From an uncultured Pseudohongiella sp. (GTDB lineage: Bacteria; Pseudomonadota; Gammaproteobacteria; Pseudomonadales; Pseudohongiellaceae): a stretch of DNA of 64,000 nt. The DNA is taken from the NCBI GenBank assembly GCA_951812965.1, contig OX638341.1:602438-666437 (forward strand), written 5' to 3'. The position numbers and the translations under genes were made by a program. This document shows positions 1 to 17,020 of the stretch, in pieces; within the stretch, counting starts at the first letter, position 1; every line of letters starts with the position of its first letter. The notes below the pieces were generated by a model. That model was given only the letters and a program-made list of their open reading frames with translations. It made no database searches and was not told where the DNA came from.

Positions 1-378
1 CGGGACGCCTGCATTCACGAGGAAATCAGCCGCAGGCCGCTGAACTACGACAGTCCCGTGCATCAAGGGGGGCTCAATTTCAGCGGCGGCCAGCGCCAGC
101 GTCTCGAGATCGCCAGAGCGCTGGTCTACAAGCCAACCCTGCTGATTCTCGACGAGGCAACCAGCGCCGTCGACCCGCTGGTCGAGCGTCGGATCGACGA
201 TGCGATCCGCCGCAGAGGGTGCGCCTGCCTCGTCATCGCTCATCGGCTGAGCACGATTCGGGACTGCGACGAGATTATCGTGCTGGATCGGGGCCGGGTG
301 GTCCAGCGCGGGCGGCACGAAGCACTGATGCAAGACCCGGACAATGCCTTGTACCGGCGCCTCATCCTTGGCGAATGA
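1..378 (+). CDS. NHLM-type C39-peptidase ABC exporter, 3' end only
   Basis: The frame is open from base 1 to a TGA at 376-378, so this is the C-terminal part (about 125 residues) of a gene starting left of the window. The ABC signature ([15 protein letters not shown]), Walker B (LLILDEAT) and switch His (IAHRLST) are all present, followed by a C-terminal tail. The stretch before the signature (DACIHEEI...YDSPVHQGG) and the tail ([16 protein letters not shown]) resemble the NHLM bacteriocin-system transporter that carries an N-terminal C39 peptidase and cuts NHLP leader peptides at a Gly-Gly-like site during export. The peptidase and membrane domains are outside the window, so the assignment rests on the ATPase and on the next gene being the second NHLM transporter. 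Expected role: leader removal and export of the peptide encoded at 7438-7713. Confidence 0.85.
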
Positions 379-408
379 CCGCGTGACCGCGATACTGGAC
401 GACCTGAC

Positions 409-3306
409 ATGACCGATCGGTGGATTGCCGCTTCCGTACTGTCCGACTATCCGCTGGTCAGGATGGCGTCGGTCGGCATGCACGAACTCGATGACCCCGA
501 CGCAGCCTGGTACGTGGAAACCGGCTACGTCGATGTGTTCTCCATTGGCATCCGAGACGGCGTTGCCGCAACGGCTTACGAGCATGTGCTGCGCGCCGGC
601 GAGAACAAGTTGCTCTTCGGCGTCGCTGCGTCCGAAGATGCGCCGCTGCGGTTGCGGGCCAAGGCATCGGCGGATCTGGTCGCCCGGCGGATTCCCCTGG
701 CCGACTTGTTCGACGGCCGCTTCGGCGACGCGCTGGGCAGCCGGATCGACGCCTGGGTCGAGGGCCTCACCGAAGCCATTGTCCGGGAAATCGTCGCGCC
801 GCCAATACCCGACGCGCGGCTGGAGCCGGACGCCGAGGTCGCATTGACGCGGGGCGGCGCCGTCACTTCCCGGCGGGGTGTGGTCTGGATTCCGGCCGGT
901 GAGCACATCGAGTTCGTCGGCACGATCGGCACGGACCGCGGCGATATCCCCCTGACTCCCGCGAGCTGGGCGCGGTGCGAAGCCAACGCGCCGCCGCGAC
1001 GGATCTCGACGACGGCGGCGCTGCTGGCGGAAGGGCGCTGCGCCGACGGTCTGGCCGAGTTCCACCGCGTCGCGCTCGCCGCGATTCAGGAAAATCGGGC
1101 GCTGGTGCTGGCGGACCTCGCCAATTTGCAAATGGAGCGCACCACGCTGCGCCGCGAGCAGGAGACGACCGCGAACGAAGCGCTGGACGCATTGGCGTCC
1201 GGCAAGGCCAGCCGGGAGACGCCGGCCACGGAACTCCTGACCGCGCTCAGGACCATCGGCGCACACGAGCAGATCCATTTCCGGACCCCGGCCGGAAGTC
1301 CGCCGCAGACTGACTCCACAGCGCTGGCCGACATCCTGCGCGCGTCCGATGTGAGAGCCCGAGCGGTTCGCCTGCCCGACGATGAGGAGTGGTGGCGCGG
1401 CGACAACGGCGCCATGCTCGGCTATCTCGGGGACAGCCGGATTCCGGTAGCGCTGATCCCGTCCCGCGCCAGCGGACGCTATCGGATCCTGAACCCGCGC
1501 AGTGGCCGGACCGTTCGGGTGACCCGGAAACTGGCCGCCGCGCTGGACCCGCGGGCCGTAACTTTCTATGCACCCTTGCCGCCGCGGCCGGCGGCGGCCG
1601 GCGACGTGCTCCGCATGATTGGCGCCGGAGCAAGGCCCCATCTGCTGAAGTACGCGGCGCTAGGCGTCATGATCGCCCTGATCGCGTACGCTCCGGCATT
1701 ATTGCTGGGTCTGGTGGTGAGCCATATCGCGCCGACCGGAGACCGGGACACACTGCGCGCGGCGATTGCCGGCCTCCTGGCGCTCAGCTTCATCGGCGGT
1801 CTCATGCAACTCATGCAGTCCCTGGCGTTGATTCGAATCGAAGGGCGTGGCGCCACACGCATCACGGGTGCATTCTGGATTCGAATCCTAGGCCTGCCGT
1901 CCCGGATTCTTCGCGGTTACATGGCCGGCGATCTGGCCGCTCGGGCGTTGAGCTTCCAGCAACTGCGCGACGTGATTTCAGGCGCCGTGGCCAACGCGAT
2001 CACCTCGCTGCTGTTCATGCTCCCGGCCGCCTGCCTGCTGCTCGTCTTCGAACCCGCGCTGACAGTTGCCCTGCTGGCGGTGGGCGTAATCGTGCTATTG
2101 GCGCTGGTCCTGCTCGGGGCGGTCCAGCTACGGTGGCGGAAGCGCGCCCTGGAGACTGCCCAGGAACTCTACGGCAAGCTTTACGAGTTCGTCAGCGCCG
2201 TCGGCAGAGTGCAGAAAGCAAGGGCAATGGGCGCTGTCTTCGCGGCCTGGGCCGAACCGTACCGGCTGCAGAAGAGCGCGGAACACCGGGCGAACCAGGT
2301 GGACGCCCTTATGCGCGCAGTCAACGGTTCCGCTCCGCTCCTCGCATCGGCGGCTCTCCTGGCCGTGTTCGCGTTTCGTGCGGCGCCGGCCGCGTCCATC
2401 GGCGACTTCCTCGTGGTATATCTGGCGGGGACCGTGTTCTTCTCCGCCCTCACGCGTCTCGGCGCCGCGGTCTCGGCGCTGACCGAAGTGCTGTCCACAT
2501 ACCGTCAGGCGGTCCCGCTGCTCGGGCAAGCGCCGGAGTTTCCGGCCGAAAGGCGGATGCCCCGCGTCACCGCCAATCGCGTAGGCGGTAACGTTCGACT
2601 GGACCATGCCACTTTTCGCTACGACCTGAACGGTCCCGTGATCCTCGACGATGTCTCGATAAGGTGTCGTCCGGGCGAGTTCGTGGCCATCGTGGGGGAA
2701 TCGGGATCCGGGAAAAGTACGGTGTTCCGGCTCTTGCTCGGACTGGAGAAGCCCGAATCGGGCACGGTCTACTACGACGGTTCCGACCTGTCGGGTTTCG
2801 ATCTCGAGGACTTTCGGAAACAAATCGGCGTCGTGACCCAGGACGCCTCCCTGATGTCTGGAACCATTCTGGAGAACATCGTCGGCGTTGACTCCAGCCT
2901 GACCGAAGACGACGCCTGGGCGGCAGCGGAACAGGCCAGCGTGGCCGGTGACATCCGCAACATGCCGATGGGTATGAACACGGCCGTCGGCGAGGACGTC
3001 GCGCTCCTTTCGGGCGGCCAGAGGCAGCGGATACTGATTGCCGCCGCCCTGGTAAGGAAACCCAGGCTGCTGCTCCTGGACGAGGCGACAAACTCGCTGG
3101 ATAATACGGCCCAGGCCGCCGTGGTCGCCAGCATCGACCGGGCGCTGGCAAGCCGCATCGTGATAGCGCACCGCTTGACGACCATTCGGGACGCCGACCG
3201 AATCTACGTGATGAGCGCCGGCAAGGTGGCGCAGCAAGGCTCGTTCGACGAGTTGGCGACCGTGCCGGGCAAATTCCGGGACCTGGTGGCGAGGCAAACC
3301 GCATGA
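409..3306 (+). CDS. NHLM bacteriocin-system ABC transporter, permease/ATPase subunit
   Basis: 965 residues. Residues 1 to about 390 form the soluble N-terminal region found in the second NHLM transporter family. Hydrophobic membrane segments follow between about 412 and 690. A full ABC ATPase is at about 735-965, with Walker A GESGSGKST near 763, signature LLSGGQRQR near 867, Walker B LLLLDEAT near 889 and switch His in IAHRLTT. It lies 30 bp after the peptidase-type exporter and its stop overlaps the next start (ATGA at 3303-3306), so the genes are probably one operon. The two NHLM transporters normally occur together and are thought to export peptides made with a nitrile-hydratase-like leader. 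There is no peptidase domain in this subunit. Confidence 0.9.
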   Translation: MTDRWIAASVLSDYPLVRMASVGMHELDDPDAAWYVETGYVDVFSIGIRDGVAATAYEHVLRAGENKLLFGVAASEDAPLRLRAKASADLVARRIPLADLFDGRFGDALGSRIDAWVEGLTEAIVREIVAPPIPDARLEPDAEVALTRGGAVTSRRGVVWIPAGEHIEFVGTIGTDRGDIPLTPASWARCEANAPPRRISTTAALLAEGRCADGLAEFHRVALAAIQENRALVLADLANLQMERTTLRREQETTANEALDALASGKASRETPATELLTALRTIGAHEQIHFRTPAGSPPQTDSTALADILRASDVRARAVRLPDDEEWWRGDNGAMLGYLGDSRIPVALIPSRASGRYRILNPRSGRTVRVTRKLAAALDPRAVTFYAPLPPRPAAAGDVLRMIGAGARPHLLKYAALGVMIALIAYAPALLLGLVVSHIAPTGDRDTLRAAIAGLLALSFIGGLMQLMQSLALIRIEGRGATRITGAFWIRILGLPSRILRGYMAGDLAARALSFQQLRDVISGAVANAITSLLFMLPAACLLLVFEPALTVALLAVGVIVLLALVLLGAVQLRWRKRALETAQELYGKLYEFVSAVGRVQKARAMGAVFAAWAEPYRLQKSAEHRANQVDALMRAVNGSAPLLASAALLAVFAFRAAPAASIGDFLVVYLAGTVFFSALTRLGAAVSALTEVLSTYRQAVPLLGQAPEFPAERRMPRVTANRVGGNVRLDHATFRYDLNGPVILDDVSIRCRPGEFVAIVGESGSGKSTVFRLLLGLEKPESGTVYYDGSDLSGFDLEDFRKQIGVVTQDASLMSGTILENIVGVDSSLTEDDAWAAAEQASVAGDIRNMPMGMNTAVGEDVALLSGGQRQRILIAAALVRKPRLLLLDEATNSLDNTAQAAVVASIDRALASRIVIAHRLTTIRDADRIYVMSAGKVAQQGSFDELATVPGKFRDLVARQTA

Positions 3307-4814
3307 CGGTAACGACCGAAGCCGACGGCGAGAAAGCCGGGGCGCCGAATCCGGACAGGATGCTGCTTGCGCGCGAGCGGATTCTCGGGTTCACCGCCCG
3401 CGGGGTGTTCCACGAGGATGACGCCCGTGCCGAGAGGCTTGCCAGGGCTATGGCGGATCGAGCGGGCCTCACCCGCGAGAACGACACGATTGGGCGGCTG
3501 CTCAAATCGGCGCTCGGCAAGACTCTCGATGCGGAATCCGCCGATTTCCACCTGGACGAGTTCGAAACTTCTCGCGACGGCGTCCCTGCCGGAATCGCCG
3601 ATCTCGTGCATCCGATGTCGCCACGCGACTTCTTTGAGCGGCAGTACGACCAGCGCAGACCCATGTTGTTCCGGGGGCCGCCCGACCGCTTCTCGGCGCT
3701 GATGGATTGGGACGACGTCAATGAAATCATCCATGCGCGAAACCTCAAGCCTCCGCAGTTGAAGCTGTGGTCGGACGGTCAGGCATTCCCCGTAACCGAC
3801 CTGTTCAGCCGCGCTTATGGACTTGGCTCAAGAAAGTTGCAACCCGCGGATGAACGGATCGACGGACACAGATTGACTCGCTATCTGCAAAACGGAGCCA
3901 CCTTGATCGTCGATTCCATCGGCACGATACATGAGCCGATCAAAACACTGATTGCCGCCATCGAGGCGAGCCTGGGCACTCACGCCACCGCCAACCTGTA
4001 CGTCTCGTATCGGCGCCAGCGAGGATTCTCCACACATTGGGACAGCCATGACGTTTACGTCCTGCAGGTGCGGGGAAGCAAGGACTGGCGACTTTTCGGC
4101 GAGATGCGCCGGGCGCCGACGGAGTCCGACGTGGCGGCCAATATGCTGCCCCCGGCCCGGCCGATTTGGAGCGGTACGCTCAACAGCGGTGATCTGCTCT
4201 TCATTCCACGCGGGTGGTGGCACGATGCCTGCGTCCCGGAAGAGCGCGACGGCGAGGGAAGCATACACCTGACGGCGCAACTTCAGCAGTATACGGGCCG
4301 TGACGTGCTGACCTGGCTCGCCGCCAAACTGGCGGCCCGTTCGGAGTTGTTCCGAATCAATGTGCCGATGTACGCCGGCCCCGAGGCCGCCGAAGCGTAC
4401 CGGGAGGCTCTGACCAGCCTGGTCGAGGAAGCGTGGCGCCAGTTCACCGTCAAGGACTTCGTTGACGACATGCGTACTGCCTGGAGCGAAGATACGCGGC
4501 TGCATCTGGATAAGCGAGTAGACCCCTGGACTCGGCCGGACTGGGATGCCCACCGGATCGTCGTATGCGGTACTAAGCAGGCGACGTTGCAAGCGGGGCC
4601 GGACGCAAGCTCGTTCCGCCTGACGGCGAACGGTTTTACCTGCGAATTCGACAGCCGCTGCAAGCCACTCGTCATCGCAATGCTCGGCGGCGTCAGCGTC
4701 GGCGACTTGAAGCGCCTCGACCCGGAGCGCTTCCCGGCAACCTTCATCGACCGATTCCTGGTCTCCCTGCTCGTTGCGGACACGGTTCGGACGGCGCCGC
4801 CGGAGAGCGCCTGA
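3303..4814 (+). CDS. JmjC/cupin-type Fe(II)/2-oxoglutarate oxygenase
   Basis: 503 residues, start overlapping the previous stop (ATGA), which suggests translational coupling. The central region matches the bacterial cupin-4/JmjC oxygenases (YcfD/MINA53 relatives, which hydroxylate protein side chains). Iron ligands are visible as H245-x-D247 (in THWDSHD) and H307 (in PRGWWHD), with the usual G-S-K-x-W strand after the first motif. The C-terminal 150 residues are unassigned and may be a winged-helix or dimerisation part, as in YcfD-like enzymes. Its place between the NHLM exporter and a tryptophan halogenase makes a tailoring role on the NHLP peptide likely; which residue it would hydroxylate is unknown. 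The alternative, hydroxylation of a ribosomal protein, fits the operon context less well. Confidence 0.85.
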   Translation: MTVTTEADGEKAGAPNPDRMLLARERILGFTARGVFHEDDARAERLARAMADRAGLTRENDTIGRLLKSALGKTLDAESADFHLDEFETSRDGVPAGIADLVHPMSPRDFFERQYDQRRPMLFRGPPDRFSALMDWDDVNEIIHARNLKPPQLKLWSDGQAFPVTDLFSRAYGLGSRKLQPADERIDGHRLTRYLQNGATLIVDSIGTIHEPIKTLIAAIEASLGTHATANLYVSYRRQRGFSTHWDSHDVYVLQVRGSKDWRLFGEMRRAPTESDVAANMLPPARPIWSGTLNSGDLLFIPRGWWHDACVPEERDGEGSIHLTAQLQQYTGRDVLTWLAAKLAARSELFRINVPMYAGPEAAEAYREALTSLVEEAWRQFTVKDFVDDMRTAWSEDTRLHLDKRVDPWTRPDWDAHRIVVCGTKQATLQAGPDASSFRLTANGFTCEFDSRCKPLVIAMLGGVSVGDLKRLDPERFPATFIDRFLVSLLVADTVRTAPPESA

Positions 4815-4835
4815 CGGCGACTGGAGGCCGCTACC

Positions 4836-6350
4836 ATGCCGTCAGACCCTGACGCGCCAATACGAAAGATCGTGATCGCCGGCGGCGGCACCTCCGGCTG
4901 GATGGCCGCCGCCCTGCTTGCGCGGTGTCTCGTGGACGCCGTCAAGGTAGAACTGGTCGAGTCGGAAGCGGTAGGCACCGTGGGCGTCGGAGAAGCCACG
5001 ATTCCGCCAATCACGCGGTTCAACGAGACGCTCGGTGTCGACGAGGACGATTTTCTCAAGAAGACCGGCGCGACCTTCAAGCTGGGCATTCAGTTCGATG
5101 GCTGGGGCCGCCCGTTCGACTGCTACACGCATGCCTTCGGAAAGATCGGTCTCGACCTCCAATTGGGGCCCTTCTATCAGTATTGGCTGAGAAGCCGCGC
5201 AGAGGGGAACCCGGATAACCTCTGGAACTACTCGATCAACGCGCTCGCGGCGACCGTCCATCGATTCGACCGGGTGGACCCGGGACCGAACGGGCAATTC
5301 GCCTATGCGTATCACTTCGATGCCCGCCTGTATGCCGCCTACCTGCGCGACTACAGCGAAGCGCGCGGAGTGACGCGAACGCAGGGGCGCATAGCAAGCG
5401 TCGAGCGCCATTCCGCGAATGGGCTCATCGCCTCGCTGACGCTTGACGACGGGCGCCAGGTTCGCGGCGACTTCTTCATCGACTGCACCGGCTTCCGCAG
5501 GCTGCTCATCGGCGAAGCGCTCGCGGTGCCCTACGAGGATTGGTCCCACTGGCTACGCTGCGACCGGGCGCTTGCCGTCCCTTGCGAGTCCGCGGTTCCC
5601 TTGCTTGCGCACACCCGCGCCATCGCGAGGAGCGCGGGTTGGCAGTGGCGCATCCCGCTGCAGTTCCGCCTGGGCAATGGCCACGTCTACTGCAGCGCAT
5701 TCATGAGCGATGACGAGGCCGCCTCCATACTGCTCGCCAACCTGGACGGCAAGGCGACCGCGGACCCGAAGCCGCTTAGATTCACGACCGGTCGTTGCCG
5801 TGAGTTCTGGCACAAGAACTGCGTCGCCCTCGGTCTCGCCGCCGGCTTTATGGAACCTCTTGAGTCCACGAGCATTCACCTCGTTCAGAAGGGAATCAGC
5901 CGCCTCGTCGGAAACTTCCCGAGCTCCCCCGGGGATGAAGTCACGCCCCGGCTTTACAATCGACAGATGCTGGCCGAGTTCGATGGCATTCGCGACTTCC
6001 TGATACTGCACTACAAGGCAAATCAGCGGGAGGGCTCAGAGTTCTGGCGTGCCTGTCGGGAGATGCGGGTACCCGATGAGCTTGACTACCGCATGCAACT
6101 GTTCCGGGAGGGCGCTCAGGTCTATTCGGCCCAGTCGGATATATTCCCTGAAGGTTCGTGGGTGCAGGTCCTCCTCGGTCAAAATATCTTGCCGAGGACC
6201 TACCATCGTCTGGCGGACAGCATCGGTTCGGCGGAACTGCATGAATACATGAGCAGGGTCAAGGGCGCGGTCGTGAACACCGTCCGCAAAATGCCGAGCC
6301 ATGCCGACTTTATCGCTACGCACTGCGCCATGGACGCGAAGGGGCAGTAG
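4836..6350 (+). CDS. flavin-dependent tryptophan halogenase
   Basis: 504 residues, close to the PrnA/RebH length. The FAD-binding motif GGGTSGWMAA is at residues 16-25. The catalytic lysine of the family corresponds to K82 (FKLGIQF), the halogenase motif WxWxIP is W269-Q-W271-R-I273-P274, and the active-site Glu region is PLESTSIHL with E343. All key residues look intact. Such enzymes use reduced FAD, halide and oxygen to make HOCl or HOBr, which reacts through the lysine with an indole carbon. No flavin reductase is encoded nearby, so one must be supplied elsewhere. It starts 21 bp after the JmjC gene and is the last gene of the plus-strand operon. The encoded NHLP peptide has one Trp in its core (W89), an obvious candidate substrate; free tryptophan remains possible. 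Confidence 0.93.
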   Translation: MPSDPDAPIRKIVIAGGGTSGWMAAALLARCLVDAVKVELVESEAVGTVGVGEATIPPITRFNETLGVDEDDFLKKTGATFKLGIQFDGWGRPFDCYTHAFGKIGLDLQLGPFYQYWLRSRAEGNPDNLWNYSINALAATVHRFDRVDPGPNGQFAYAYHFDARLYAAYLRDYSEARGVTRTQGRIASVERHSANGLIASLTLDDGRQVRGDFFIDCTGFRRLLIGEALAVPYEDWSHWLRCDRALAVPCESAVPLLAHTRAIARSAGWQWRIPLQFRLGNGHVYCSAFMSDDEAASILLANLDGKATADPKPLRFTTGRCREFWHKNCVALGLAAGFMEPLESTSIHLVQKGISRLVGNFPSSPGDEVTPRLYNRQMLAEFDGIRDFLILHYKANQREGSEFWRACREMRVPDELDYRMQLFREGAQVYSAQSDIFPEGSWVQVLLGQNILPRTYHRLADSIGSAELHEYMSRVKGAVVNTVRKMPSHADFIATHCAMDAKGQ

Positions 6351-6431
6351 GCGCGCCGAGCGGGACGCGTCCTGCTGTTGAACACCGCCACCGCAGGTGT
6401 TGAGCCTCCGGCGCTCCCCGGACGTCGGGCG

Positions 6432-7268
6432 TCAGTACGTTTCCCCGGGAGCAGGCGTTGCGGGCGGCAATTCCGCCTGGAATCGCCGGACACGCGTCAG
6501 CTTGTCCGTCTCTTCCTGAAACAGCGCCATCACCCGTACCTCCACCGTCAGCCGCGGCGGCGCGTCCGATCCGACCGCGGGATCGGGGACGGCGCCGTGG
6601 AACACACCTCGCCGGTGAGACGCCTCTTCCAACGTGTCGTACTGCTTGTGTACCAGGACTTCGTCCGCAGTCATTGCCGGAAAGAAGTGCCACCGCTGCG
6701 TTGGGCGATACACAAGTCGATAGCTGTAACCCACTCGCGGAGGGTCTTTCCGGTCAAGCGAATCGGCCAGTACGACGTCTTCGGACATCACTGAGCGCAG
6801 ATCGCACACTGCCAGCGGCATCGTCTGCACGGGACGCTCGAAATCGCAGTTTCGCCAGAGCGTGTAGATGCGAAAGTGGCGGTCTTCCGCCGCCCCATCC
6901 AGAGGCAGTTCCGCATACGGAGTGACATCGGTGTGAAAAAGTGGTTCATGTCGCACCATGGGCGCGCGAAGCGTCTTGCGGTTTCCCGTCCACGCGCCCG
7001 GCGGCGAGTCGCGATACTGATAGTTGAGCACCTTGCAGGCTATGCAGCCGGTTAGCTGCCGAACGAGTTCCCGGAACTCCTCGAACAGGATGGGAATCTG
7101 GGCCGGGTCGTGGAAGTCGGTGATGCGGGTAGGGTGGCGCGCCAAGGTGAAACCGTGCGCGGCCAGCTCCGGGAGTTCCGCTAAAGTCCGCGCATCGGCC
7201 ACCCGAATGGGCCGCTCCTCGAACATGGACGCACGCTCCCCGTCATCGACCCACTCCACCGGGGGCAT
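6432..7268 (-). CDS. CmcJ/NvfI-family putative Fe/2OG oxygenase
   Basis: About 278 residues from the ATG at 7268; an in-frame GTG at 7331 would add 21 residues, and neither start has a strong ribosome site. The pattern matches the CmcJ/AsaB/NvfI family of secondary-metabolite hydroxylases: an F-H-T-D-V-T-P block (first iron ligands HxD), then PLAVCD, a W-H-F-F-P-x-M-T-x-D-E-V-L-V block, a distal H in VFHGAV, and the R of VEVRV expected to bind 2-oxoglutarate. Known members oxidise antibiotics or meroterpenoids. The gene lies downstream of the NHLP precursor on the same strand and converges with the halogenase, so it is a second oxygenase candidate for the peptide. The family assignment is from motif pattern only. 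Confidence 0.78.
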   Translation of the reverse strand: MPPVEWVDDGERASMFEERPIRVADARTLAELPELAAHGFTLARHPTRITDFHDPAQIPILFEEFRELVRQLTGCIACKVLNYQYRDSPPGAWTGNRKTLRAPMVRHEPLFHTDVTPYAELPLDGAAEDRHFRIYTLWRNCDFERPVQTMPLAVCDLRSVMSEDVVLADSLDRKDPPRVGYSYRLVYRPTQRWHFFPAMTADEVLVHKQYDTLEEASHRRGVFHGAVPDPAVGSDAPPRLTVEVRVMALFQEETDKLTRVRRFQAELPPATPAPGETY

Positions 7269-7349
7269 ACATCTACCCCGATAGCGCTCATTGACGAAGC
7301 GCCCTATTGTCCGGATCACCGTACAGTTCACCGTACAGTGCGGGGACGC

Positions 7350-7426
7350 GACCCGACCGGGTCACGAGCCTTCAATGAACCGAGGCACCCGATCTCCGCT
7401 GACGAGCCGCACGACGCCAACGTCGT
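7350..7426 (-). promoter_or_regulatory. two stem-loops between RiPP precursor and oxygenase gene
   Basis: Twelve bases after the precursor stop there is a perfect inverted repeat ACGACG-CCAA-CGTCGT (7411-7426), and further on GACCCG-AC-CGGGTC (7350-7363). Neither is followed by a clear T-run. Such hairpins often sit between a RiPP precursor and its enzymes, protecting the short message or reducing read-through so the peptide is made in excess. This role is inferred. Confidence 0.4.
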
Positions 7427-7437
7427 TGTAAACTGCG

Positions 7438-7713
7438 TCAACAGTCCCAGGCGTAATCAGTCGATCCATCGCAACCGGCGCCCGCCACTTGCGACATCTC
7501 TTCTCCGGTCAACTCCGCTGACGGGGGCAGCACGATGTGCGCCGTGTCGACGCTGTTGTCCTCGTGTACATGGATCTTGAAGCCATCGGGCAGGGCAATG
7601 CCCATATCGTCTCGAAGCGCGGTAACCGGATCGTCGAGCAAACGCTTGCGGAAACCCGGATCAGTGAGCGACTTGCCCATGATCTCCTCTCGCAATTGGC
7701 CAACTGTTTTCAT
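7438..7713 (-). CDS. NHLP-leader RiPP precursor peptide
   Basis: 91 residues with a good ribosome site (AGGGGAT, 6 bases before ATG). Residues 1 to about 66 match the nitrile-hydratase-like leader family (F-R-K-R-L-L-D-D-P..A-L, then M-G-I-A-L-P and the V-L-P-P segment at 61-64). It ends in the leader motif L68-T-G-E-E-M-S-Q-V76-A-G-A-G80, equivalent to the usual VAGG cleavage site of C39 peptidases. The remaining core is C81-D-G-S-T-D-Y-A-W89-D-C91: 11 residues, cysteine at both ends, one Trp, one Tyr, Asp at 82, 86 and 90, and no basic residue. Cleavage after A79 or G80 cannot be decided from sequence. The gene starts 65 bp after the RND permease stop on the same strand. NHLM exporters, a halogenase and two oxygenases in the same locus support its being the substrate. 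Confidence 0.92.
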   Translation of the reverse strand: MKTVGQLREEIMGKSLTDPGFRKRLLDDPVTALRDDMGIALPDGFKIHVHEDNSVDTAHIVLPPSAELTGEEMSQVAGAGCDGSTDYAWDC

Positions 7714-7778
7714 GATTTTTATCCCCTAAAGCAAGATTTGACGTGTCGAATATATCATGAGTCGTGCCTCGCAATACA

Positions 7779-10700
7779 CTACCGATGCTTTTCCTGTCGC
7801 GAGGGGATTTCCGCGGGCGCGGGTTTCGCGGAAAACAGGTCCTCCGCGACCAGATAGACGCAAGGCACCAGGAACAGGGTGATCGCCGTGGCGAACAGCA
7901 GGCCCCAGGCGAGCGAGATGGCCATCGGCACGAAGAAGTCCGTGGCCGGATTATCGTTGAGCATCAGCGGCATGAGCCCCGCGAAGGTCGTGGTGCACGT
8001 AATGAGGATAGGCCGGAAACGCACGATGCCGGCGCGGCGCACGGCAAGGCCCGCGTCAACGCCGATGCGCCTTTGCCGGTTGACGTAATCGATCAGCACG
8101 AGGCTTGTGTTGACTACTACCCCCGCCAGGGCAACGAGTCCGAAGATGGACGTGATCGTGACCGGCTGGCCCATGATGAGATGTCCGGCGATGGCGCCGA
8201 CCGCTCCGAAGGGGATGACGCTCATGATCACCAGCGGCTGGAAATAGGAACGCAGCGGGATGGCCAGCAGCGCATAGATCGTGAGCAGCGCCAAAGGGAC
8301 GAGACTGAAGAGTCCTGCGGTCGATTCGTTGCGCTGCTCGCGCTCGCCACCGAGCGAATAACGGATGCCCTGGTAGCCGGACAGGATTCTCGGCAGCGCA
8401 TCGGCCGTGAGCGCTTGCAGCACCGCTTCGGGCGTCACGATGTCGCGGTCGACGTCGGCGCGCACGATCACTACGCGCTCACGGTCGAAGCGCGTAATGG
8501 TAGAGTACCCTCTGCCGAGTTCGACCCCGGCGACGGCCGCGAACGGAATCTCCGCGCCATCGGCGGTCCGGATGCGCATGTCTTCCAGATCGCCCAGAGA
8601 TCGCCGCTCGGCTTCAGGGTAGCGGACCATGACGCGTACGTCCTCGGCGCCGCGCTGCACACGCTGCACTTCCTCCCCGTAAAATGCCTGACGTGTCTGA
8701 CGCGCGAGATCGCTGAGCGTCAAACCCGATTGACGACCCGGCGGAAGCAACGTCAGCTTGGCTTCCTGCTTGCCCGAACGGAACGAATCGGAAATATCCT
8801 GGACACCTTCGAAACGCGCCAGTTCCGTGCGCAACTGCGCGGCGGCATTGGCCAGATCGTCCACATTGCGGCCTTGCAGCCGAATGGCAATGGCGTCACC
8901 TACCGCAAATCCCACGGTGTTGAAGGTGAGCGACAAGCTGCCGTAAATCGACCCGGTCAACTCACGCCAGCGGCTCGATATATCACTGACGGACACGTTG
9001 CCGCGTTCCCCGGCCGGCGGAATCGACAGCACGAGTTCCGCGATGTGGCTCTCGGACACAACCGAGCGCGCCCCCGACGATCGGCCGACGGAACTGAAAA
9101 TATGCTCGATCAACGAAGGGCGGTTCGGGTGGGCGGTGTCCAGTTCGGCTTTCAATTGCAAGGCCGCACGCTCGATCTGGTGCGCCGCCCGCGCGGTTTG
9201 AGCGACATCGACGCCCGGCGGCATCTCCACCCGCGCAACGATACTGTCGCTCTCGATCCGGGGCGCGAACTGCGTTTCGACCCGGCCGCTCGCGAGCAGG
9301 CCAAGCGTCACGATCAGGACGCTCACGCCTATCGCCAGCGCTGCGTACCGCGATTCGATCGCGCGGTCGAGCGCCGGGCCGTAACCGTCGCGGGCCAATC
9401 GCTCGATACCGGCGCCGATACGTCGCTGGAGCCGCCGCCATGCCGCGTACGAAGCGTTGACCCCGGCCGCCGGGTCCGTCGGCGGCGGTCCTTTTCGGTG
9501 CGCCAGGTGAGCCGGGAGGACAAACTGGGATTCGACGATGCTGAAAACAAGACAGATGGCGACGACGTATCCGATGGCGGAAACCAACTGTCCCGTGACG
9601 CCGGGAGCGAAAACAAGCGGCGTGAATGCGGCGATCGTGGTCAGTGCGCCGAATATGACCGGCACGGCCACTTCGCTCGTGCCGTCCACAGCCGCGGCGA
9701 AGCGGTCCTTGCCCTGTTGCTCGTGCGCGAAAACGCGCTCGCCGACGACGATGGCGTCGTCCACGACAATGCCGAGCACGAGGATGAAGCCGACCACGGA
9801 CACGGTGCTTACGGTGATTCCCAACGCACCCATCATGCCGACCGTGCCGAGCATTGCCACCGGGATGCCGACAGCGACCCACAGGGCCAGTCGGAATCGC
9901 AGTAGCACCGCAAGAAACAGCAGCACCAGCGCCAGACCGCTCACGGCGGCGCCGAGCAGGATGTCGATGCGCGCCTCCAGCGACTCGGACTGGTCGCGCG
10001 AGACGGTCAATTCGATGCCCTCGGGCATTCGCAGCCGGGCTTCGTCCACGTATCGCCGCGCCCGTTCGCTGATATTGAGCACGTCTTCGCCGCCGACCCG
10101 GTTGACCCGCACGACGGCTGCGGGCCTGCCATCGAATCGCGCTTCCGATTCGCCTTCCCGAAACCCGTCCACGATCGTTGCGATCTCATCCAGATATACC
10201 CTGGTGCCGTCCTCCCTGGAGAGGACGACGATGTCGCGAAAATCTTCGCCGGTATAGGCCTGACCCTGGGTGCGGAGCAGGATTTCCCCGGCGCCTGACT
10301 CAATGGAACCACCGGGCATGTCCAGCGAAGTGCGCCGCACGGCGTCGGCCACCTGGTCGAAAGTGAGTCCCATCCGCCGTAGGGTTTGCTCCGAGACCTC
10401 GATGGATATCTCATCGGCGCGGACAAAGGCGACTTCGACATTCGAGATGCCCTCCAGCGCCGTGATCCCGTCGCGCAGTCCGTTCGCCAGTTCCTTCAGC
10501 GCGCGTTCGTCCGCATCGCCGCTGACCACGATCTCCAGCGCAGTTTCAATGTTCGGCATCAGCGACACCACAGGGCGCTCGGTCTCTCTCGGAAACGTGG
10601 AGATGGCGTCGATCCGGTTCTTGATCCCGTTGGCGGTCCGGATGCGGTTGGCATTGGTCTCGAGTTCGAGCAACACGACGCCGAAGCCTTCGTTCGCGAT

Positions 10701-10949
10701 CGACGTCATTGAACGGATGCCCTCGATGCCCGCAACGGTCTCCTCGATCCGCAGCAGGACGCCATTCTCGACTTCCTCCGGCGCCGCCCCAAGATAGGGT
10801 ACGGAGACCGTGACGATATTCGACTCGATCGACGGCAATTCCTCGTGCCTGATCTGAAAAACGGCGATCAGCCCGCCGACCACGAGAATCGTCATCAGCA
10901 GGTTGGCCGCAACGGGGTTGCCGACGAACCATCCGATGACGGGCTTCAT
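7779..10949 (-). CDS. RND-family efflux pump, inner-membrane permease
   Basis: 1056 residues, the usual length of AcrB/MdtB-type permeases. It begins with the typical N-terminal membrane helix (WFVGNPVAANLLM) and the N-P-V and P-S-I-E segments of the hydrophobe/amphiphile exporter group. Two large periplasmic loops and twelve expected helices follow. The proton-relay Asp pair is visible in GIVVDDAIVVGERVFA. Its ATG overlaps the stop of the adaptor gene by four bases (ATGA at 10946-10949), so they are co-translated. No outer-membrane factor gene is present in the window. Because the NHLP precursor follows 65 bp downstream on the same strand, the pump could protect the producer or export the product; that is inference, and it may equally be a general drug or solvent pump. 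Confidence 0.93.
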   Translation of the reverse strand: MKPVIGWFVGNPVAANLLMTILVVGGLIAVFQIRHEELPSIESNIVTVSVPYLGAAPEEVENGVLLRIEETVAGIEGIRSMTSIANEGFGVVLLELETNANRIRTANGIKNRIDAISTFPRETERPVVSLMPNIETALEIVVSGDADERALKELANGLRDGITALEGISNVEVAFVRADEISIEVSEQTLRRMGLTFDQVADAVRRTSLDMPGGSIESGAGEILLRTQGQAYTGEDFRDIVVLSREDGTRVYLDEIATIVDGFREGESEARFDGRPAAVVRVNRVGGEDVLNISERARRYVDEARLRMPEGIELTVSRDQSESLEARIDILLGAAVSGLALVLLFLAVLLRFRLALWVAVGIPVAMLGTVGMMGALGITVSTVSVVGFILVLGIVVDDAIVVGERVFAHEQQGKDRFAAAVDGTSEVAVPVIFGALTTIAAFTPLVFAPGVTGQLVSAIGYVVAICLVFSIVESQFVLPAHLAHRKGPPPTDPAAGVNASYAAWRRLQRRIGAGIERLARDGYGPALDRAIESRYAALAIGVSVLIVTLGLLASGRVETQFAPRIESDSIVARVEMPPGVDVAQTARAAHQIERAALQLKAELDTAHPNRPSLIEHIFSSVGRSSGARSVVSESHIAELVLSIPPAGERGNVSVSDISSRWRELTGSIYGSLSLTFNTVGFAVGDAIAIRLQGRNVDDLANAAAQLRTELARFEGVQDISDSFRSGKQEAKLTLLPPGRQSGLTLSDLARQTRQAFYGEEVQRVQRGAEDVRVMVRYPEAERRSLGDLEDMRIRTADGAEIPFAAVAGVELGRGYSTITRFDRERVVIVRADVDRDIVTPEAVLQALTADALPRILSGYQGIRYSLGGEREQRNESTAGLFSLVPLALLTIYALLAIPLRSYFQPLVIMSVIPFGAVGAIAGHLIMGQPVTITSIFGLVALAGVVVNTSLVLIDYVNRQRRIGVDAGLAVRRAGIVRFRPILITCTTTFAGLMPLMLNDNPATDFFVPMAISLAWGLLFATAITLFLVPCVYLVAEDLFSAKPAPAEIPSRQEKHR

Positions 10950-12133
10950 GATCCGTACGCGCCCGGCGCCACGGCCGACTCGTCCTTGACCACTTCAACG
11001 CGCATGCCTTCCACCACCGCCTGCAAGACTGTAAGGCACACGCGTTCGCCCCTTTCCAGACCGCCGTCAATGTAGGCGTCGTCTCCGTATATGCGAGCAA
11101 TTTTTACCGTACGGAAGCGCAATCGATCATCCTCGTCCACCACCAGCACCTGGTTGCCGTTGCGAACCGCTGAACGCGGCACCACACTCACGCTGTCGGC
11201 GGAGAGTCCCAGTATTTCCGCCGCGACGAACAGTCCCACCGGCGGCGGAACGTAAGTCGAATCACCCGAAACCCCGTCGCCGGCGCCTACGCGGGCGACT
11301 GCGTTCACCATCCGGCTGCGCAAGTCAATCTCCGCTTCGACGCGCACGACCCTGCCTCGCCATACGTAACTCCGCCCAGCGTAGTCCGCCGACAGCGATA
11401 CTTCCGGGGAGATGGACTCGTCCAGTTCCCCGCGATGCATGGCCGGAATATCGAGGTAGGCCAGTTGCCGGTCCGCAATCGGCAGACGCACCTCCATGTA
11501 GTCCACCGCGTACAGCCGCGCGATGGCGCCGCCGCGGCTGACGAACTGGCCCACGTCGATCTGCTCGCTGCGCACAAGTCCGGCAAACGGCGCCAATATC
11601 TCAGTCCTGGATAGATCGAGTTCGGCTTGCTTCAGAGTCGCGCGGGCATCGGCTAGCGCCGCTTCGGTCACCCGTGCGGTTCTCGCGCCCGATTCGACTT
11701 CGGAACGGCTGATGAGATTGCCTGCTTCCATCTCCCGCAGCCGCCGCAACTCGAAAGCGGCAAATTCCTGTTCCGCCATGGCCCGGTCCACGGCCGCGCG
11801 AGCCCGCCCCAGGGCATACCGATAGTCCCGCTCGTCGATACGCAGCAATGGTTCGCCTTCCTCGAAGTACCCTCCGGCGACCAGGTTCGGAGAAACCCAC
11901 ACGACGTTGCCCGAAACTTCCGGCACCAGATCCGCCTCGGTGCGGGGGGACACCGTTCCCTGGCTGTGGACCACCATGCGCACGCCGCCGGGGTTCACAT
12001 GCATGACCCTGACGGCCGGGGCTATGGGTGCCGGCTCGCTCGGGTCAAGTTGCGGCCGTGTCGCGATCAGTGCTGCCATGATTGCCACTGATAGCGCGAC
12101 GGCGGCGACCGCGACGATGGTAAAGGGCTTCAT
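10946..12133 (-). CDS. RND efflux periplasmic adaptor (membrane fusion protein)
   Basis: About 395 residues from the ATG at 12133, which has GGGGATTT just upstream; a TTG at 12163 would add ten. An N-terminal hydrophobic segment (FTIVAVAAVALSVAIMAAL) anchors it to the inner membrane. The V-x-P-x-V-S-G-N-V biotinyl-lipoyl half (DLVPEVSGNVVWV), an alpha-helical hairpin, the second lipoyl half (ILAPFAGLVRSEQIDVGQFV) and beta-barrel regions follow in the usual order. It bridges the permease at 7779-10949 to an outer-membrane channel encoded elsewhere. It is divergent from the gene at 12319, with about 185 bp between the starts. Confidence 0.9.
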   Translation of the reverse strand: MKPFTIVAVAAVALSVAIMAALIATRPQLDPSEPAPIAPAVRVMHVNPGGVRMVVHSQGTVSPRTEADLVPEVSGNVVWVSPNLVAGGYFEEGEPLLRIDERDYRYALGRARAAVDRAMAEQEFAAFELRRLREMEAGNLISRSEVESGARTARVTEAALADARATLKQAELDLSRTEILAPFAGLVRSEQIDVGQFVSRGGAIARLYAVDYMEVRLPIADRQLAYLDIPAMHRGELDESISPEVSLSADYAGRSYVWRGRVVRVEAEIDLRSRMVNAVARVGAGDGVSGDSTYVPPPVGLFVAAEILGLSADSVSVVPRSAVRNGNQVLVVDEDDRLRFRTVKIARIYGDDAYIDGGLERGERVCLTVLQAVVEGMRVEVVKDESAVAPGAYGS

Positions 12134-12318
12134 AAATCCCCGCACCCGCCTGTAACGGGCCAATGGACCATGACTTGATGTTACCCCAACTGTACCCGCC
12201 TCGCAGTCACCGAATCTTGTCGGTGTATGTTGCCGGTGTATTGCCGCATCCGCCGATTGATCCTAAACTCGACCTGTTCCACGCCGAAGACCGGTCTGGG
12301 AGAGGGACGCAACGGATC

Positions 12319-13401
12319 ATGAGCACGGCCCGTTCACATAGACTCGGACGGACGATTCTCGACGGGCCGCTCGACGTCGTGCTTGAGACCGTTTGTCATG
12401 CGCTTCCGACCGCGCTGCTTACCGCCAGGGGGGCGGGCCTGCAGCAATTGCATCACCTTCCGGCTTGTGCGCTCGAAACGACATTTGGTTTCGAGAGCCG
12501 CTTGTCCGACCCGCGGCCCGCTTGCGACTTCTTCCTGACGGCGACGCCCGGCACACGGTTCGCGAAGTATCTCGTCAAGCGCGGCGCCCGCGACGACGCC
12601 ACGCCGCCAGAGTTGGCGCTGGGCTGGTATCTGACGGAAGTCGGGCGACCCGCCAGTTTCCTGTCGCGATGGTTCAGCGGCGCGATTCTGGAGTACGACG
12701 TGGTGGAGGCGCCGGCGAATAGGCCGGCGCCGATGGGCGTGTTCCTCGAAGCCCATTGGAGCAACGATGACGCCCACCCTCTTGTACAGAGTACGAGGCG
12801 ACGCGAGAAACTCGGCAACCCGGGCGTGATGACGGCCGCAATTGCGGCCGCGGTGGGTCAGGAAGAGAGCCCCGACTTGCGAATGGCCGTGGAGACGCTT
12901 TTCGCCGCCTTGCCGGAAGGGGCCGGCTGCTCCCATGTGGGCGCCTTTCCCATGCGGGATTCTTCCGCGCTCCGCATCGTGTTTTCCATGGCGATGAGAG
13001 AATCCGCCCAGTTTCTGGAACGGGTCGGCTGGCGCGGCAGTCTTGACTCGCTGGCGCGCCTTTCCCGCGAACTCGATCCGCTGCTCCCCCGCATCGGGCT
13101 GGCCTGCGACCTGAACGCCGCGGGACTCCATCCGAGAATCGGCCTTGAGTTGTATCGCGGGCGCGGCTGGACCGAGACGTCGCCAGCCAGTTGGCTTGTG
13201 CTCCTGGATTACCTTGGCGAGCGCGGTCTGGTAACACCGGAGAAAGCTCAAGCGCTCCGGACATGGCCAAACCGCGAAATGCTCTTCGGTTCGCGGGGAG
13301 CGATGAGGTTGCTTTCGGGAGTAAATCACTTGAAGCTGACTTTCGATGGGCCGGTCATGCAAGCGAAAGTCTACATCGGCGCCCGGCTCTTTGCCGCCTG
13401 A
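12319..13401 (+). CDS. uncharacterised protein paired with a cyclase-like gene
   Basis: About 360 residues from the ATG at 12319; the frame is open upstream to 12163, but that part looks non-coding. I do not recognise a named family with confidence. No signal peptide or membrane helix is evident. The C-terminal half has a regular pattern: I-G-L-E-L-Y followed by a hydrophobic L-L-D-Y-L-x-E-R-G-L-V-T-P-E-K-A-Q-A-L segment, then NHLKLTF and a final strand QAKVYIGARLF. The feel is of an alpha/beta fold ending in a paired strand. It is followed 22 bp later by the squalene-cyclase-like gene and is probably co-transcribed with it. Association with the RiPP locus is by position only. An ABBA-type peptide prenyltransferase was considered, but I see no diagnostic motif. 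Confidence 0.6.
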   Translation: MSTARSHRLGRTILDGPLDVVLETVCHALPTALLTARGAGLQQLHHLPACALETTFGFESRLSDPRPACDFFLTATPGTRFAKYLVKRGARDDATPPELALGWYLTEVGRPASFLSRWFSGAILEYDVVEAPANRPAPMGVFLEAHWSNDDAHPLVQSTRRREKLGNPGVMTAAIAAAVGQEESPDLRMAVETLFAALPEGAGCSHVGAFPMRDSSALRIVFSMAMRESAQFLERVGWRGSLDSLARLSRELDPLLPRIGLACDLNAAGLHPRIGLELYRGRGWTETSPASWLVLLDYLGERGLVTPEKAQALRTWPNREMLFGSRGAMRLLSGVNHLKLTFDGPVMQAKVYIGARLFAA

Positions 13402-13423
13402 ATTCTTTCGAGGAACAATTTGA

Positions 13424-14434
13424 ATGACTGACTTCTCGCAGGAACCGCAGACGTTGGTAAAGCTCGCCAATCAGGCCATCGACAGGGGACTTGCGTTTAT
13501 CGATGCTCACGTATCTGAGGAGGGGCTCTGGCTCCACAACTGGTTCGACATCGATCGGCCCGAAGCGAGGCGTGTCGATCCAACCCCTTTCGTCGGCGCC
13601 CTGGGATCGTTGTCGCTGCACGGCATCGCCGACCCTCGCGCCGAAGCGATCCTCACGCGAACCAAACTTTACACAGCGGCGACCATGGAGCCGCCGGGCA
13701 TCTGGCGCTACTGGCCGCATCTGCCGCCGGACGCCGACACCACATCCATCTGCAATCTCGTCCTGGGTTTTCATCCCATGCTGCTTGGCGGGTGGTACGA
13801 ACAGGTTCTGCTCAGGCATCGCAGCCCGGAGGGTCTCTTTCACACTTGGCTCGAAAATGCACCGGTCAACGATGCCGATCCAGTATTGAACGCAAACGTC
13901 GTGGCCTGTCTCGGCGATACGCCGGGCACCCGGAAGGCGCAATGCTGGCTCAAGCGGATCATTGGCGACGGTACCGACGCCAATGAGATGCGCTACTACT
14001 GGGACGTCATGGATCTTTATAGCGCCATCTTGCGCGCCCACCACCTGCATCCGCCGGTGTTCGCCGGCATCCTGCCGATCATCGCCGACCGCATAGCCTC
14101 GCGCCGCCGAGCGGATGGCGCCTACGGCGACGGCCTGCGCACCTGCCTCGCCGTGACCACGCTACGTCAACTCGGGAAGCCCCTGTGGGGCGCCTGGGCA
14201 GCCGTCACGCTCGAACATCTGCTCGGCCTGCAAATGCCGGACGGCGGCTGGCCGGACTCGTGGCAGGCGTCGGGACCCCGCTGGCCGGAACCGCGCCTCT
14301 ATGTATTCTCCTCGCGCACTTACGACACCGCCAATTGCATCGAAGCGATCAGCGACCTGCTCGACGGATGCGAAGACGTGCAGGCCGGGCGCCGAACGGG
14401 GATTCGCGCAATCGCCGATCCATTTTCCGAATAG
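13424..14434 (+). CDS. squalene-cyclase/prenyltransferase-like alpha-toroid protein
   Basis: 336 residues. Repeated helical pairs and a QW-type motif (LLGLQMPDGGWPDSW near residues 266-280) point to the alpha/alpha-toroid fold shared by squalene-hopene cyclases, prenyltransferase beta subunits and related proteins. It is about half the length of a squalene-hopene cyclase. The protonating D-x-D-D motif is not evident; a D-A-D-T-T segment (residues 104-108) aligns only loosely. It has no signal peptide. It follows the uncharacterised gene by 22 bp. A terpene-cyclising activity cannot be claimed; it may be a non-catalytic or peptide-binding toroid. Whether it belongs to the RiPP pathway is open. 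Confidence 0.7.
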   Translation: MTDFSQEPQTLVKLANQAIDRGLAFIDAHVSEEGLWLHNWFDIDRPEARRVDPTPFVGALGSLSLHGIADPRAEAILTRTKLYTAATMEPPGIWRYWPHLPPDADTTSICNLVLGFHPMLLGGWYEQVLLRHRSPEGLFHTWLENAPVNDADPVLNANVVACLGDTPGTRKAQCWLKRIIGDGTDANEMRYYWDVMDLYSAILRAHHLHPPVFAGILPIIADRIASRRRADGAYGDGLRTCLAVTTLRQLGKPLWGAWAAVTLEHLLGLQMPDGGWPDSWQASGPRWPEPRLYVFSSRTYDTANCIEAISDLLDGCEDVQAGRRTGIRAIADPFSE

Positions 14435-14547
14435 AGAACGCCATCAGCGAAACCCCGTCCCTGAACCCGGTTTAACTATCGTCGGCCAGATTGCTATATT
14501 GGCGTCCCCGTACCGGAATCGGGCGGGCGCGATACTGGAGAGAAAAT

Positions 14548-15066
14548 ATGTTGAGATTCTTGAAGTGGCTGGTAATCGTCATCGTCGGCACGGCGCTTGC
14601 CGTCTGGATATTCCTGTTGGCCATGCGGCTGAGCGACGGACCCGTGGCGGTCATCCCCGGCGGCCCTTTTCGCAGCGGCGAGCCTACCCCGGTCCCCGAC
14701 GACTGGAGCTTTCTGCGCGACCGCATGGAAGTCGAGTTCCAGACAATGGACCCGGCGACAACCCGCACCGTGTGGGTCGGCGTCCACGACAGTCGGTTGT
14801 TCCTGGTGAGCGGCTACATGAACTCCTGGTACGGCGGCATCTGGAAACAATGGCCGCATTACATGGGCGACGACACCCGTATCGTGCTGCGCGTGGATGA
14901 CAGCCTTTACGATCTCGAACTTGAGCGTGTGATGGGCGGCCCCGACGTGGCGCCGGTCCTTTCCGAGTTCGCCAGAAAGTACGGCGGCGCCGACCCAGGC
15001 GCGGTAACGAATGACGACGCCGTCACGTCGGGATCGGTGTGGATGTACGAAGCGTTCGCGCGGTAG
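14548..15066 (+). CDS. membrane-anchored protein of unknown function
   Basis: 172 residues from the ATG at 14548, chosen because GGAGAG lies six bases upstream and the protein then begins with a membrane anchor (FLKWLVIVIVGTALAVWIFLLA). The rest is predicted outside the cytoplasm and rich in beta strands (TRTVWVGVHDSRLFLVSGY, then DTRIVLRVDDSLYDLELERV). The pattern recalls small split-barrel (PNPOx-like) proteins, but no ligand motif is clear, so no function is given. A weak promoter-like TATATT occurs at about 14493-14498. It is followed 29 bp later by another small gene on the same strand, so the two may be co-transcribed. Confidence 0.65.
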   Translation: MLRFLKWLVIVIVGTALAVWIFLLAMRLSDGPVAVIPGGPFRSGEPTPVPDDWSFLRDRMEVEFQTMDPATTRTVWVGVHDSRLFLVSGYMNSWYGGIWKQWPHYMGDDTRIVLRVDDSLYDLELERVMGGPDVAPVLSEFARKYGGADPGAVTNDDAVTSGSVWMYEAFAR

Positions 15067-15095
15067 ACCGTAGCGGTCTGGAAAAGGAGAAGAAC

Positions 15096-15353
15096 ATGGC
15101 GAAATACTATGCAAGCAATCCGGTAGACGGACTCGTGCCCCTTAACGGCGAGACCCTGATCGAAGCGATCGAAGACGCGGCGAACCACGACTGGAAGTTC
15201 ACCGACGGCACGATTCCCATTTTCGACGGCAGCGCCAAACCCATCGCCTGGATGGATCCGGAAGACTGTGCCTGGACCCTGACCCCGCCCGCCACCTGGT
15301 GGCCGGCCAAATCGGACTCTCACGACGCCAGGGAAAAGAATATCAGGCACTAG
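15096..15353 (+). CDS. small acidic protein of unknown function
   Basis: 85 residues from the ATG at 15096, which has AAGGAGA seven bases upstream; the longer open frame from 15039 lacks such a site. It is soluble, without signal peptide or helix long enough to cross a membrane, and rich in Trp and Asp in its second half (IAWMDPEDCAWTL, TPPATWWPA). I do not recognise the family. It follows the membrane-anchored gene at 14548-15066 by 29 bp. Confidence 0.6.
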   Translation: MAKYYASNPVDGLVPLNGETLIEAIEDAANHDWKFTDGTIPIFDGSAKPIAWMDPEDCAWTLTPPATWWPAKSDSHDAREKNIRH

Positions 15354-15432
15354 GGCGATGGCCGATCTCGCACGGAGTCGGCATTCGTGCCATGATTTCC
15401 ATTCTTTCGATCAACCCGGACGCGAAAATACG

Positions 15433-16638: not shown

Positions 16639-16641
16639 TTC

Positions 16642-17020
16642 GGGCGAGGCATGCCTCGCCCCTACATTGCCCCCAGTGCACCGGTATCGACCTTGGGTTG
16701 CTCTCGCCCCTGCATTGCCCCCAGTGCACCGGTATCGACCTTGGGTTGCTCTCGCCCCTACATTGCCCTCAGTGCACCGGAATCGACCTTGGGTTGCTCG
16801 CCCCTGCATTGCCCTCAGTGCACCGGAATCGACCTTGGGTTGCTCGCCCCTGCATTGCCCCCAGTGCACCGGAATCGACCTTGGGTTGCTCGCCCCTACA
16901 TTGCCCCCAGTGCACCGGTATCGACCTTGGGTTGCTCTCGCCCCTGCATCACCTCAAACGCATCGGCAAGTTCGTTCTATCTGTAGCGATGCTCCTGTAG
17001 GGGCGACGCATGCGTCGCCC
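16642..17020. repeat. 46/48-bp tandem repeats bounded by two palindrome types
   Basis: This gene-free stretch begins with GGGCGAGGCATGCCTCGCCC (16642-16661) and ends with GGGCGACGCATGCGTCGCCC (17001-17020). In between, a unit beginning GCCCCTRCATTGCC and containing CAGTGCACCGG and CGACCTTGGGTTGC starts at 16658, 16706, 16754, 16800, 16846 and 16892, with a partial seventh at 16940. The spacing is 48 bp where the junction has an extra CT and 46 bp otherwise. The unit start reuses the right arm of the palindrome, so the array seems to have grown from it. Open frames across it are only translations of the repeat. Confidence 0.9.

Follow-up and report, generated by a model that had tools for sequence, protein, structure and literature searches.

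The window analyzed here is a stretch of 64,000 nucleotides from an uncultured Pseudohongiella sp. (G000:C1:602438-666437, in a genome of a single contig of 3,425,201 bases), and its first 14,434 nucleotides carry a locus for a ribosomally synthesized and post-translationally modified peptide (RiPP). The locus is of the NHLP-leader (proteusin) type and encodes a Trp halogenase and two oxygenases. The last two open reading frames (ORFs) of the locus, at 12319-13401 and 13424-14434, encode proteins with the predicted folds of an ABBA aromatic prenyltransferase and a class II terpene cyclase, and went unremarked in an earlier note on this DNA though they lie inside the region that it covered. We favor, with moderate confidence, a leader-guided pathway in which the region around the Trp residue of the core is prenylated, terpene-cyclized, halogenated and oxidized, and the peptide is then cut by a C39 peptidase domain and exported. 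The features of the locus are as follows.

1..378, plus strand: C-terminal part of the NHLM ABC1 exporter (TIGR03796, 815.3 bits; cut-off 853.3)
409..3306, plus strand: NHLM ABC2 exporter (TIGR03797, 661.1 bits; cut-off 709.4)
3303..4814, plus strand: JmjC_2 (PF08007) oxygenase of the Fe(II)/2-oxoglutarate type (77.9 bits; cut-off 22)
4836..6350, plus strand: flavin-dependent Trp-halogenase family protein (PF04820, 595.5 bits; cut-off 21)
6432..7331, minus strand: CmcJ/NvfI-type non-heme iron oxygenase (NF041278, 160.2 bits; cut-off 80)
7438..7713, minus strand: NHLP precursor, 91 amino acids (TIGR03793, 54.4 bits; cut-off 50.9)
7441..7476, minus strand: likely core GCDGSTDYAWDC, with the Trp codon at 7447-7449, following a G-A pair that is GG in most relatives
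7779..10949, minus strand: RND efflux pump (ACR_tran, 516.2 bits)
10946..12133, minus strand: RND membrane-fusion protein (MFP; HlyD_3, 37.7 bits; start codon chosen by the analyst)
12319..13401, plus strand: ABBA-fold prenyltransferase-like protein (predicted fold; the ORF opens at 12163 and its start was set by homology)
13424..14434, plus strand: class II terpene-cyclase-like protein (drimenol synthase/MstE type; predicted fold; DADTT motif)

The predicted model of the protein at 12319-13401 (AlphaFold2, pLDDT 85.5) shows the barrel of the ABBA aromatic prenyltransferases, and the best 44 Foldseek rows for this model are all ABBA enzymes. The family has no match in Pfam or NCBIfam, and its profile (alignment A1) finds no match among Protein Data Bank sequences at E values up to 10. 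The model suggests a putative prenyltransferase activity for this protein.

The linkage of this family to NHLP precursors was tested in 137 genomes of the bacterial family, with an NHLP match counted at E values up to 0.001 and within 6 kb. The prenyltransferase family is present in 11 of these genomes, at 21 places. Eighteen of the places are located within 6 kb of an NHLP match, and the other three are on two contigs without a listed match. Among the 12 genomes with an NHLP match over the cut-off, 10 carry the prenyltransferase family. A sample of the phylum has it in only 3 of 398 genomes, including that of the window, and one of these matches is weak (E 4e-4). Beyond these genomes, copies are found on a Nostoc plasmid, where two NHLP precursors lie 2.7 kb away, and on an Azospirillum plasmid, where the gene adjoins an NHLP array and a YcaO gene. 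At another locus (G485; L191 3309-9111), a Nif11 precursor is positioned next to LanM and is flanked by a JmjC_2 protein and a protein of the prenyltransferase family; this locus has no NHLP match.

A contig search with five sequences of the window type gave 30 loci, all in records of metagenome-assembled genomes (MAGs), from Alpha- and Gammaproteobacteria and one Binatia. They contain CmcJ (17 loci), Trp halogenase (14), a methyltransferase (10), a cyclase (6), the MFP/RND pair (4) and JmjC (3), and none of them contains YcaO. These counts are not independent, because many of the contigs are cut, five duplicate contigs found earlier, and some are almost identical. The SrpI-like query cross-matches Trp halogenases, and the SrpI flag is left out of the counts. 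The methyltransferase (L096 15835-16620 and similar, in the 10 loci) accompanies the prenyltransferase and usually CmcJ, in loci where SY or SW forms the end of the cores. In L168-L173 and L176, prenyltransferase genes are surrounded by arrays of 7 to 18 NHLP precursors, whose cores are highly diverse and mostly Trp-terminal.

The protein at 13424-14434 also has no Pfam or NCBIfam family. Its predicted structure is the alpha/alpha toroid of class II terpene cyclases (drimenol-synthase/MstE type). The catalytic Asp of the DxD motif is present: Asp105 is invariant in all 10 aligned sequences and aligns with the Asp residue replaced by Asn in the AsDMS D333N entry. We regard the protein as a putative class II terpene cyclase. 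In some homologs, an NHLP leader is fused in frame to the cyclase-like domain (L007 14867-16168, L099 10754-12094, L103 8801-10123 and L110 5775-7088), an arrangement that points to reuse of the leader fold as a docking module for enzymes.

The precursor matches the NHLP leader family above its cut-off and has a single Trp residue in the core, as the earlier note had read. It shares 35% identity (E 6e-18) with the SrpE-like precursor encoded elsewhere in the genome. Where the srp-type leader motif would be L(X)4L, the window precursor has L68 to M73, which is L(X)4M. The C-terminal part of the precursor reads ...LTGEEMSQVAGAGCDGSTDYAWDC. In an alignment of 10 rows, the pair G78-A79 occupies the position of a GG or AG pair in the nine relatives. 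Therefore, the core is most likely GCDGSTDYAWDC (1291.4121 Da in linear form), with cleavage predicted after the G-A pair.

The core ends were surveyed in the 30 prenyltransferase loci. The 104 ORFs with a leader match were reduced to 96 by length and score (below 200 aa, E below 1e-15), of which 68 are distinct in their last 20 residues. Trp is terminal in 50 of the 68 and Tyr in 7, and one or the other is found among the last three residues in 60. Such ends would be expected of substrates for a shared enzyme that modifies an aromatic residue at the terminus, but this falls short of proof. Two observations weigh against such a role. The srp-type cores that end in SCCM, SCCL or SCCV also adjoin the prenyltransferase family. 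Both Nostoc cores near the prenyltransferase copy end in KS. The window core itself is unusual: Trp is its third-last residue, and it contains two Cys residues; none of the 68 surveyed sequences has Cys within the last 20 residues.

The two oxygenases keep their catalytic residues. The closest solved structures to the JmjC protein are NO66/MINA, and the H-x-D...H residues His245, Asp247 and His307 are kept in all five aligned JmjC proteins. The profile of the CmcJ/NvfI protein (alignment A3) matches NvfI (7de2) at an E value of 3e-21, and His133, Asp135 and His245 are invariant in the four aligned sequences. Ten genomes were tested, through their loci, for a JmjC protein of the window type, and four have one (37-38% identity). 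One more genome (G140) has a match of 29%, with no NHLP match nearby. In all four genomes with the 37-38% protein, the JmjC gene is accompanied by NHLP precursors, the prenyltransferase, a cyclase homolog and an RND pump, and a precursor ending in ITFWDDF is located within 3 kb of it. The cyclase gene lies directly before the JmjC gene in three of the four, and CmcJ was seen in one (32% identity). The window halogenase has no match in any of the four. Therefore, the window locus reads as a JmjC-bearing cassette to which a halogenase has been added. The four genomes, as well as the relatives in the 30 loci, are probably from sponge symbionts, judging by MAG names of this kind; the record titles are silent on this point.

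Other JmjC matches in the 137 genomes reach at most 105 bits, and 29 of the loci around them (1.9-4.1 kb each) have no NHLP leader match. With the window JmjC as the query, the genome and viral contig collections gave no relative. A second JmjC_2 gene of the same genome (L147 5446-7065; G000:C1:122-124 kb) follows an ORF of 142 residues with GEGTDSSDQSG repeats and no Pfam match. On Streptomyces plasmids, two short ORFs (L039 9803-9940 and L040 9734-9880) both end in DGGGTGRSDGND and are followed directly by genes for a cupin/JmjC relative and an aldo/keto reductase; they are possibly a small RiPP family.

The earlier note took halogenation plus hydroxylation as the apparent chemistry of the locus. 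Such a limited chemistry is unsupported, because prenyltransferase-like and cyclase-like proteins, both present here, recur beside the NHLP precursors of relatives. For this chemistry to be complete, the two genes would have to serve a separate product or be inactive, and to be adjacent by chance. They do form a divergent pair of their own, 185 bp from the MFP gene, and the window cyclase is without any profile match. However, in the bacterial family searched, proteins of the prenyltransferase family occur almost exclusively at NHLP loci (the 18 of 21 places given above), and cyclase, JmjC, prenyltransferase, NHLP and RND genes co-occur in all four cassette genomes. We regard a core with halogenation and hydroxylation only as unlikely.

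The window halogenase has a known structure, 6y1w, as its closest solved relative (E 4e-154). Its catalytic regions, which we take to be the GxGxxG, Lys and WxWxIP motifs, align with those of 6y1w, and together with the PF04820 score this identifies a flavin-dependent Trp halogenase. A paralog of 57% identity in the same genome (G000:1403865) has neighbors that, judged by eye, resemble genes for sugar use and TonB receptors. The first halogenase tree had 32 rows (38 matches minus six duplicates). The second had 31, from the 38 minus 14 (duplicates, one very long branch, two SrpI-like sequences and five distant ones of TonB loci) plus seven, and it included nine halogenases of other prenyltransferase loci, of which eight have an NHLP precursor in the examined stretch and one, at L154, has none. 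This tree keeps the window halogenase in the sugar-locus group (support 94/83, not starred), with its exact sister unsure because of a long branch. A single origin for the window halogenase and the nine others was rejected (approximately unbiased test, p-AU 1.6e-6, ten rows), and an earlier test joining it with other NHLP loci gave the same outcome (p-AU 6.8e-40, three rows). The nine are compatible with being one clade (p 0.34). The window protein as a close relative of SrpI was also rejected, by its identity of 25% to the genome's own SrpI-like protein and by its placement in the tree. Separate recruitments of RiPP halogenases appear to be the simplest reading of these trees.

The same trees bear on the possibility that the halogenase arose by duplication of the sugar-locus, TonB-linked enzyme and is inactive on the peptide, so that the RiPP would be prenylated and oxidized only. 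The close sugar-locus paralog and the rejected grouping with the nine are in line with this, as are the JmjC-bearing relatives that have no window-type halogenase. On the other hand, the halogenase gene is positioned just behind the JmjC gene, inside the exporter gene run, Trp halogenases are found in nearly half of the prenyltransferase loci (14 of 30), and the window core does contain Trp. An inactive duplicate is an improbable account of this arrangement.

A halogenated NHLP peptide is already known. The source genome has an srp-type locus about 0.73 Mb away (L007; G000:C1:1336000-1355000), with an NHLP precursor ending in ISAGLCCCW, a Trp_halogenase protein of 436 residues, YcaO, a fatty-acid-desaturase-like protein and NHLM exporters, as well as a homolog of the window prenyltransferase and the cyclase homolog with an NHLP leader fused in front. 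LCCCW is the core of SrpE, and SrpI brominates its C-terminal Trp after cyclization by YcaO, according to PMC10858898; as regards halogenation, this overturns the earlier statement that no described product of this kind was known. The window locus shares with the srp proteusins (SrpE/SrpI/SrpC, from sponge microbiomes) the NHLP leader, the NHLM exporters and a Trp halogenase. It differs in having no YcaO and no LCCCW-type core, in its distant halogenase (compared through the SrpI-like protein of the same genome), and in the addition of JmjC, CmcJ and RND proteins. It is very unlikely that the srp-type YcaO, the sole one of the genome, also forms azolines on the window precursor before halogenation, as in SrpE: the window core has Cys, Ser and Thr, the two leaders are 35% identical and SrpI is supported also by the leaders of other proteusins (PMC10858898), but each locus has exporters of its own, the cores differ, and YcaO is absent from all 30 loci with the window-type prenyltransferase.

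The NctPC-type RiPPs, known here by description, combine Trp prenylation with terpene cyclization to give a cyclized geranylgeranyl group on Trp (PMC13290415), and share with the window locus an ABBA-fold prenyltransferase and an MstE-like class II cyclase. In comparison, the window has two separate ORFs instead of one fusion, and adds the halogenase and the two oxygenases. The mpp cluster of Moorena producens is a Nif11 cluster with a brominase, a prenyltransferase, a terpene synthase and an oxygenase (PMC11791876), in which leader-dependent geranylation of Trp (MppC) and bromination (MppI) take place on a long structured leader (PMC12715784, PMC11791876). A long structured leader, a Trp halogenase, a prenyltransferase, a terpene enzyme and an oxygenase are common to mpp (MppI, MppC, MppD, MppG) and the window; however, the mpp leader is of the Nif11 type with LanM, whereas the window locus has an NHLP leader and no lanthionine enzyme. 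JmjC hydroxylases are described to act on RiPP precursors in the biphenomycins (BipG/BpmG; PMC12707348, PMC12257519), which is the feature shared with the window, where the precursor and partner genes differ. PF08007 proteins with folds like the RiPP recognition element, and bacterial homologs in RiPP-like contexts, are described in PMC12710340. The link between cupin/JmjC and NHLP has been seen before, as four gene-cluster families from sponges have a cupin-4 enzyme and an NHLP domain (PMC9426513). Our literature searches found neither NHLP together with JmjC under these names nor anything relevant on CmcJ in a RiPP setting.

The NHLM exporters, the JmjC protein, the halogenase, the precursor and the CmcJ/NvfI oxygenase listed in the earlier note were all recovered in place by profile matches, and its remark that the left edge cuts the locus holds as well, with most of ABC1 and an HlyD-like ORF lying beyond the edge. 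That note saw no LanM, radical S-adenosylmethionine (SAM) or YcaO enzyme, pointed to the left side as the place to look, and took such an enzyme there as evidence that would overturn its reading; no such evidence turned up. The flank was scanned over 12.4 kb (L005), in 13 ORFs chosen by a simple caller that could have missed a small gene, and none of the 13 matches YcaO, LanM or radical SAM. The nearest of them are the rest of ABC1, the short HlyD-like ORF, an ORF of 63 residues and an ABC_membrane_3 gene. The nine farther left are HNH, FG-GAP, EamA, DUF1499, an alpha/beta hydrolase, a ParE/Phd pair and two methyltransferases. LANC_like has no match anywhere in the genome, so no lanthionine synthetase, as in an mpp-like lanthipeptide, was found. 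The sole YcaO of the genome (G000:C1:1346580) is about 0.73 Mb from the locus. For radical SAM, none was recognized in the locus or the left 12.4 kb, and a genome-wide search was not made.

The locus consists of two convergent gene runs and one divergent pair. The plus-strand run contains the short HlyD-like ORF (outside the window), ABC1, ABC2, JmjC_2 and the halogenase. The minus-strand run contains, in order, the MFP, the RND pump, the NHLP precursor and the CmcJ/NvfI oxygenase. The second plus-strand pair is the prenyltransferase-like gene followed by the cyclase-like gene. ABC2 and JmjC overlap by 4 bp, as do RND and MFP, and the gaps are 21 bp between JmjC and the halogenase, 65 between the precursor and RND, 106 between CmcJ and the precursor, and 22 bp between the prenyltransferase and the cyclase. 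Based on this spacing, the genes probably form operons. TIGR03796 and TIGR03797 are by far the top families for the exporters, which score 38 and 48 bits below the equivalog cut-offs. The whole ABC1 gene (L005 10600-12816, mostly outside the window) carries a C39 leader-peptidase domain (Peptidase_C39, 108.4 bits). ABC1 and ABC2 are 43% and 41% identical to their counterparts in the srp-type locus, and the HlyD-like ORF is 25% identical to the one there (E 5e-5). Homologs of the RND pump (31-33%) stand beside NHLP or prenyltransferase loci at L154, L171, L172, L176 and L179-L182, and those of the MFP (27-29%) are in L154, L171, L172, L176, L180 and L182. Two features outside the locus were also observed: a 46-bp tandem repeat at 16652-16949 of the window (6.3 copies, 94% matches), and, elsewhere in the genome (L008 73-4300; G000:C1:196-200 kb), genes for a Cas4-Cas1 fusion and Cas2 with regularly repeated DNA behind them, by eye a CRISPR-like array. 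An Rfam search of window positions 1-20000 gave no match.

In the pathway that we favor, the short core, probably GCDGSTDYAWDC, would be modified at and near its single Trp residue while it is still attached to the leader. The ABBA-fold protein would transfer an isoprenoid, of presumptive length, to the core, most likely to the indole of Trp, and the separate MstE-like class II cyclase would close it into rings. The Trp-halogenase protein may add Br or Cl. The JmjC and CmcJ/NvfI-type proteins would hydroxylate or further oxidize core residues, the Asp residue beside Trp being a candidate. Cleavage behind the G-A pair by the C39 domain of ABC1 would follow, and the product would leave through the NHLM exporters; the RND pump and its MFP are a likely second route for export or self-protection. 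The order of these steps is presumptive, as would be any bioactivity of the product.

More broadly, and at slightly below even chances, the loci may represent a class of meroterpenoid proteusins, for which no name was found, in symbionts of several bacterial classes. In its members, the leader would guide the ABBA prenyltransferase to the C-terminal Trp or Tyr of dozens of different cores, and the isoprenoid would be cyclized where an MstE-type cyclase, stand-alone or fused to a leader, is present, as it often would be; the leader fold would serve as a docking module. Halogenases would have joined the class at least three times, as the SrpI type, as the one found in the nine other loci, and as the window type from a sugar-locus halogenase. 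If this is true, the window product would be the first known to us with a halogen, a cyclized terpene and a hydroxyl on one NHLP peptide.

Every kind of enzyme in the locus is known, and so is the overall kind of the system, a tailored NHLP/Nif11 RiPP. Within the searches made, three elements are new: the combination of enzymes, the encoding of prenyltransferase and cyclase as separate proteins in an NHLP system, and a family of prenyltransferases unnamed in Pfam and NCBIfam. Prenylation of symbiont NHLP peptides is invisible in these two databases, because no model there matches the family. The locus offers a concrete, testable case for a group of symbiont NHLP peptides that are prenylated and terpene-cyclized. 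For RiPP halogenases, it points to an origin by capture, more than once, from uptake loci linked to TonB. Three enzymes of use in peptide chemistry would be available together in one small locus: an ABBA prenyltransferase that is probably leader-dependent, a separate cyclase that would act on a peptide, and a candidate peptide halogenase of a new clade.
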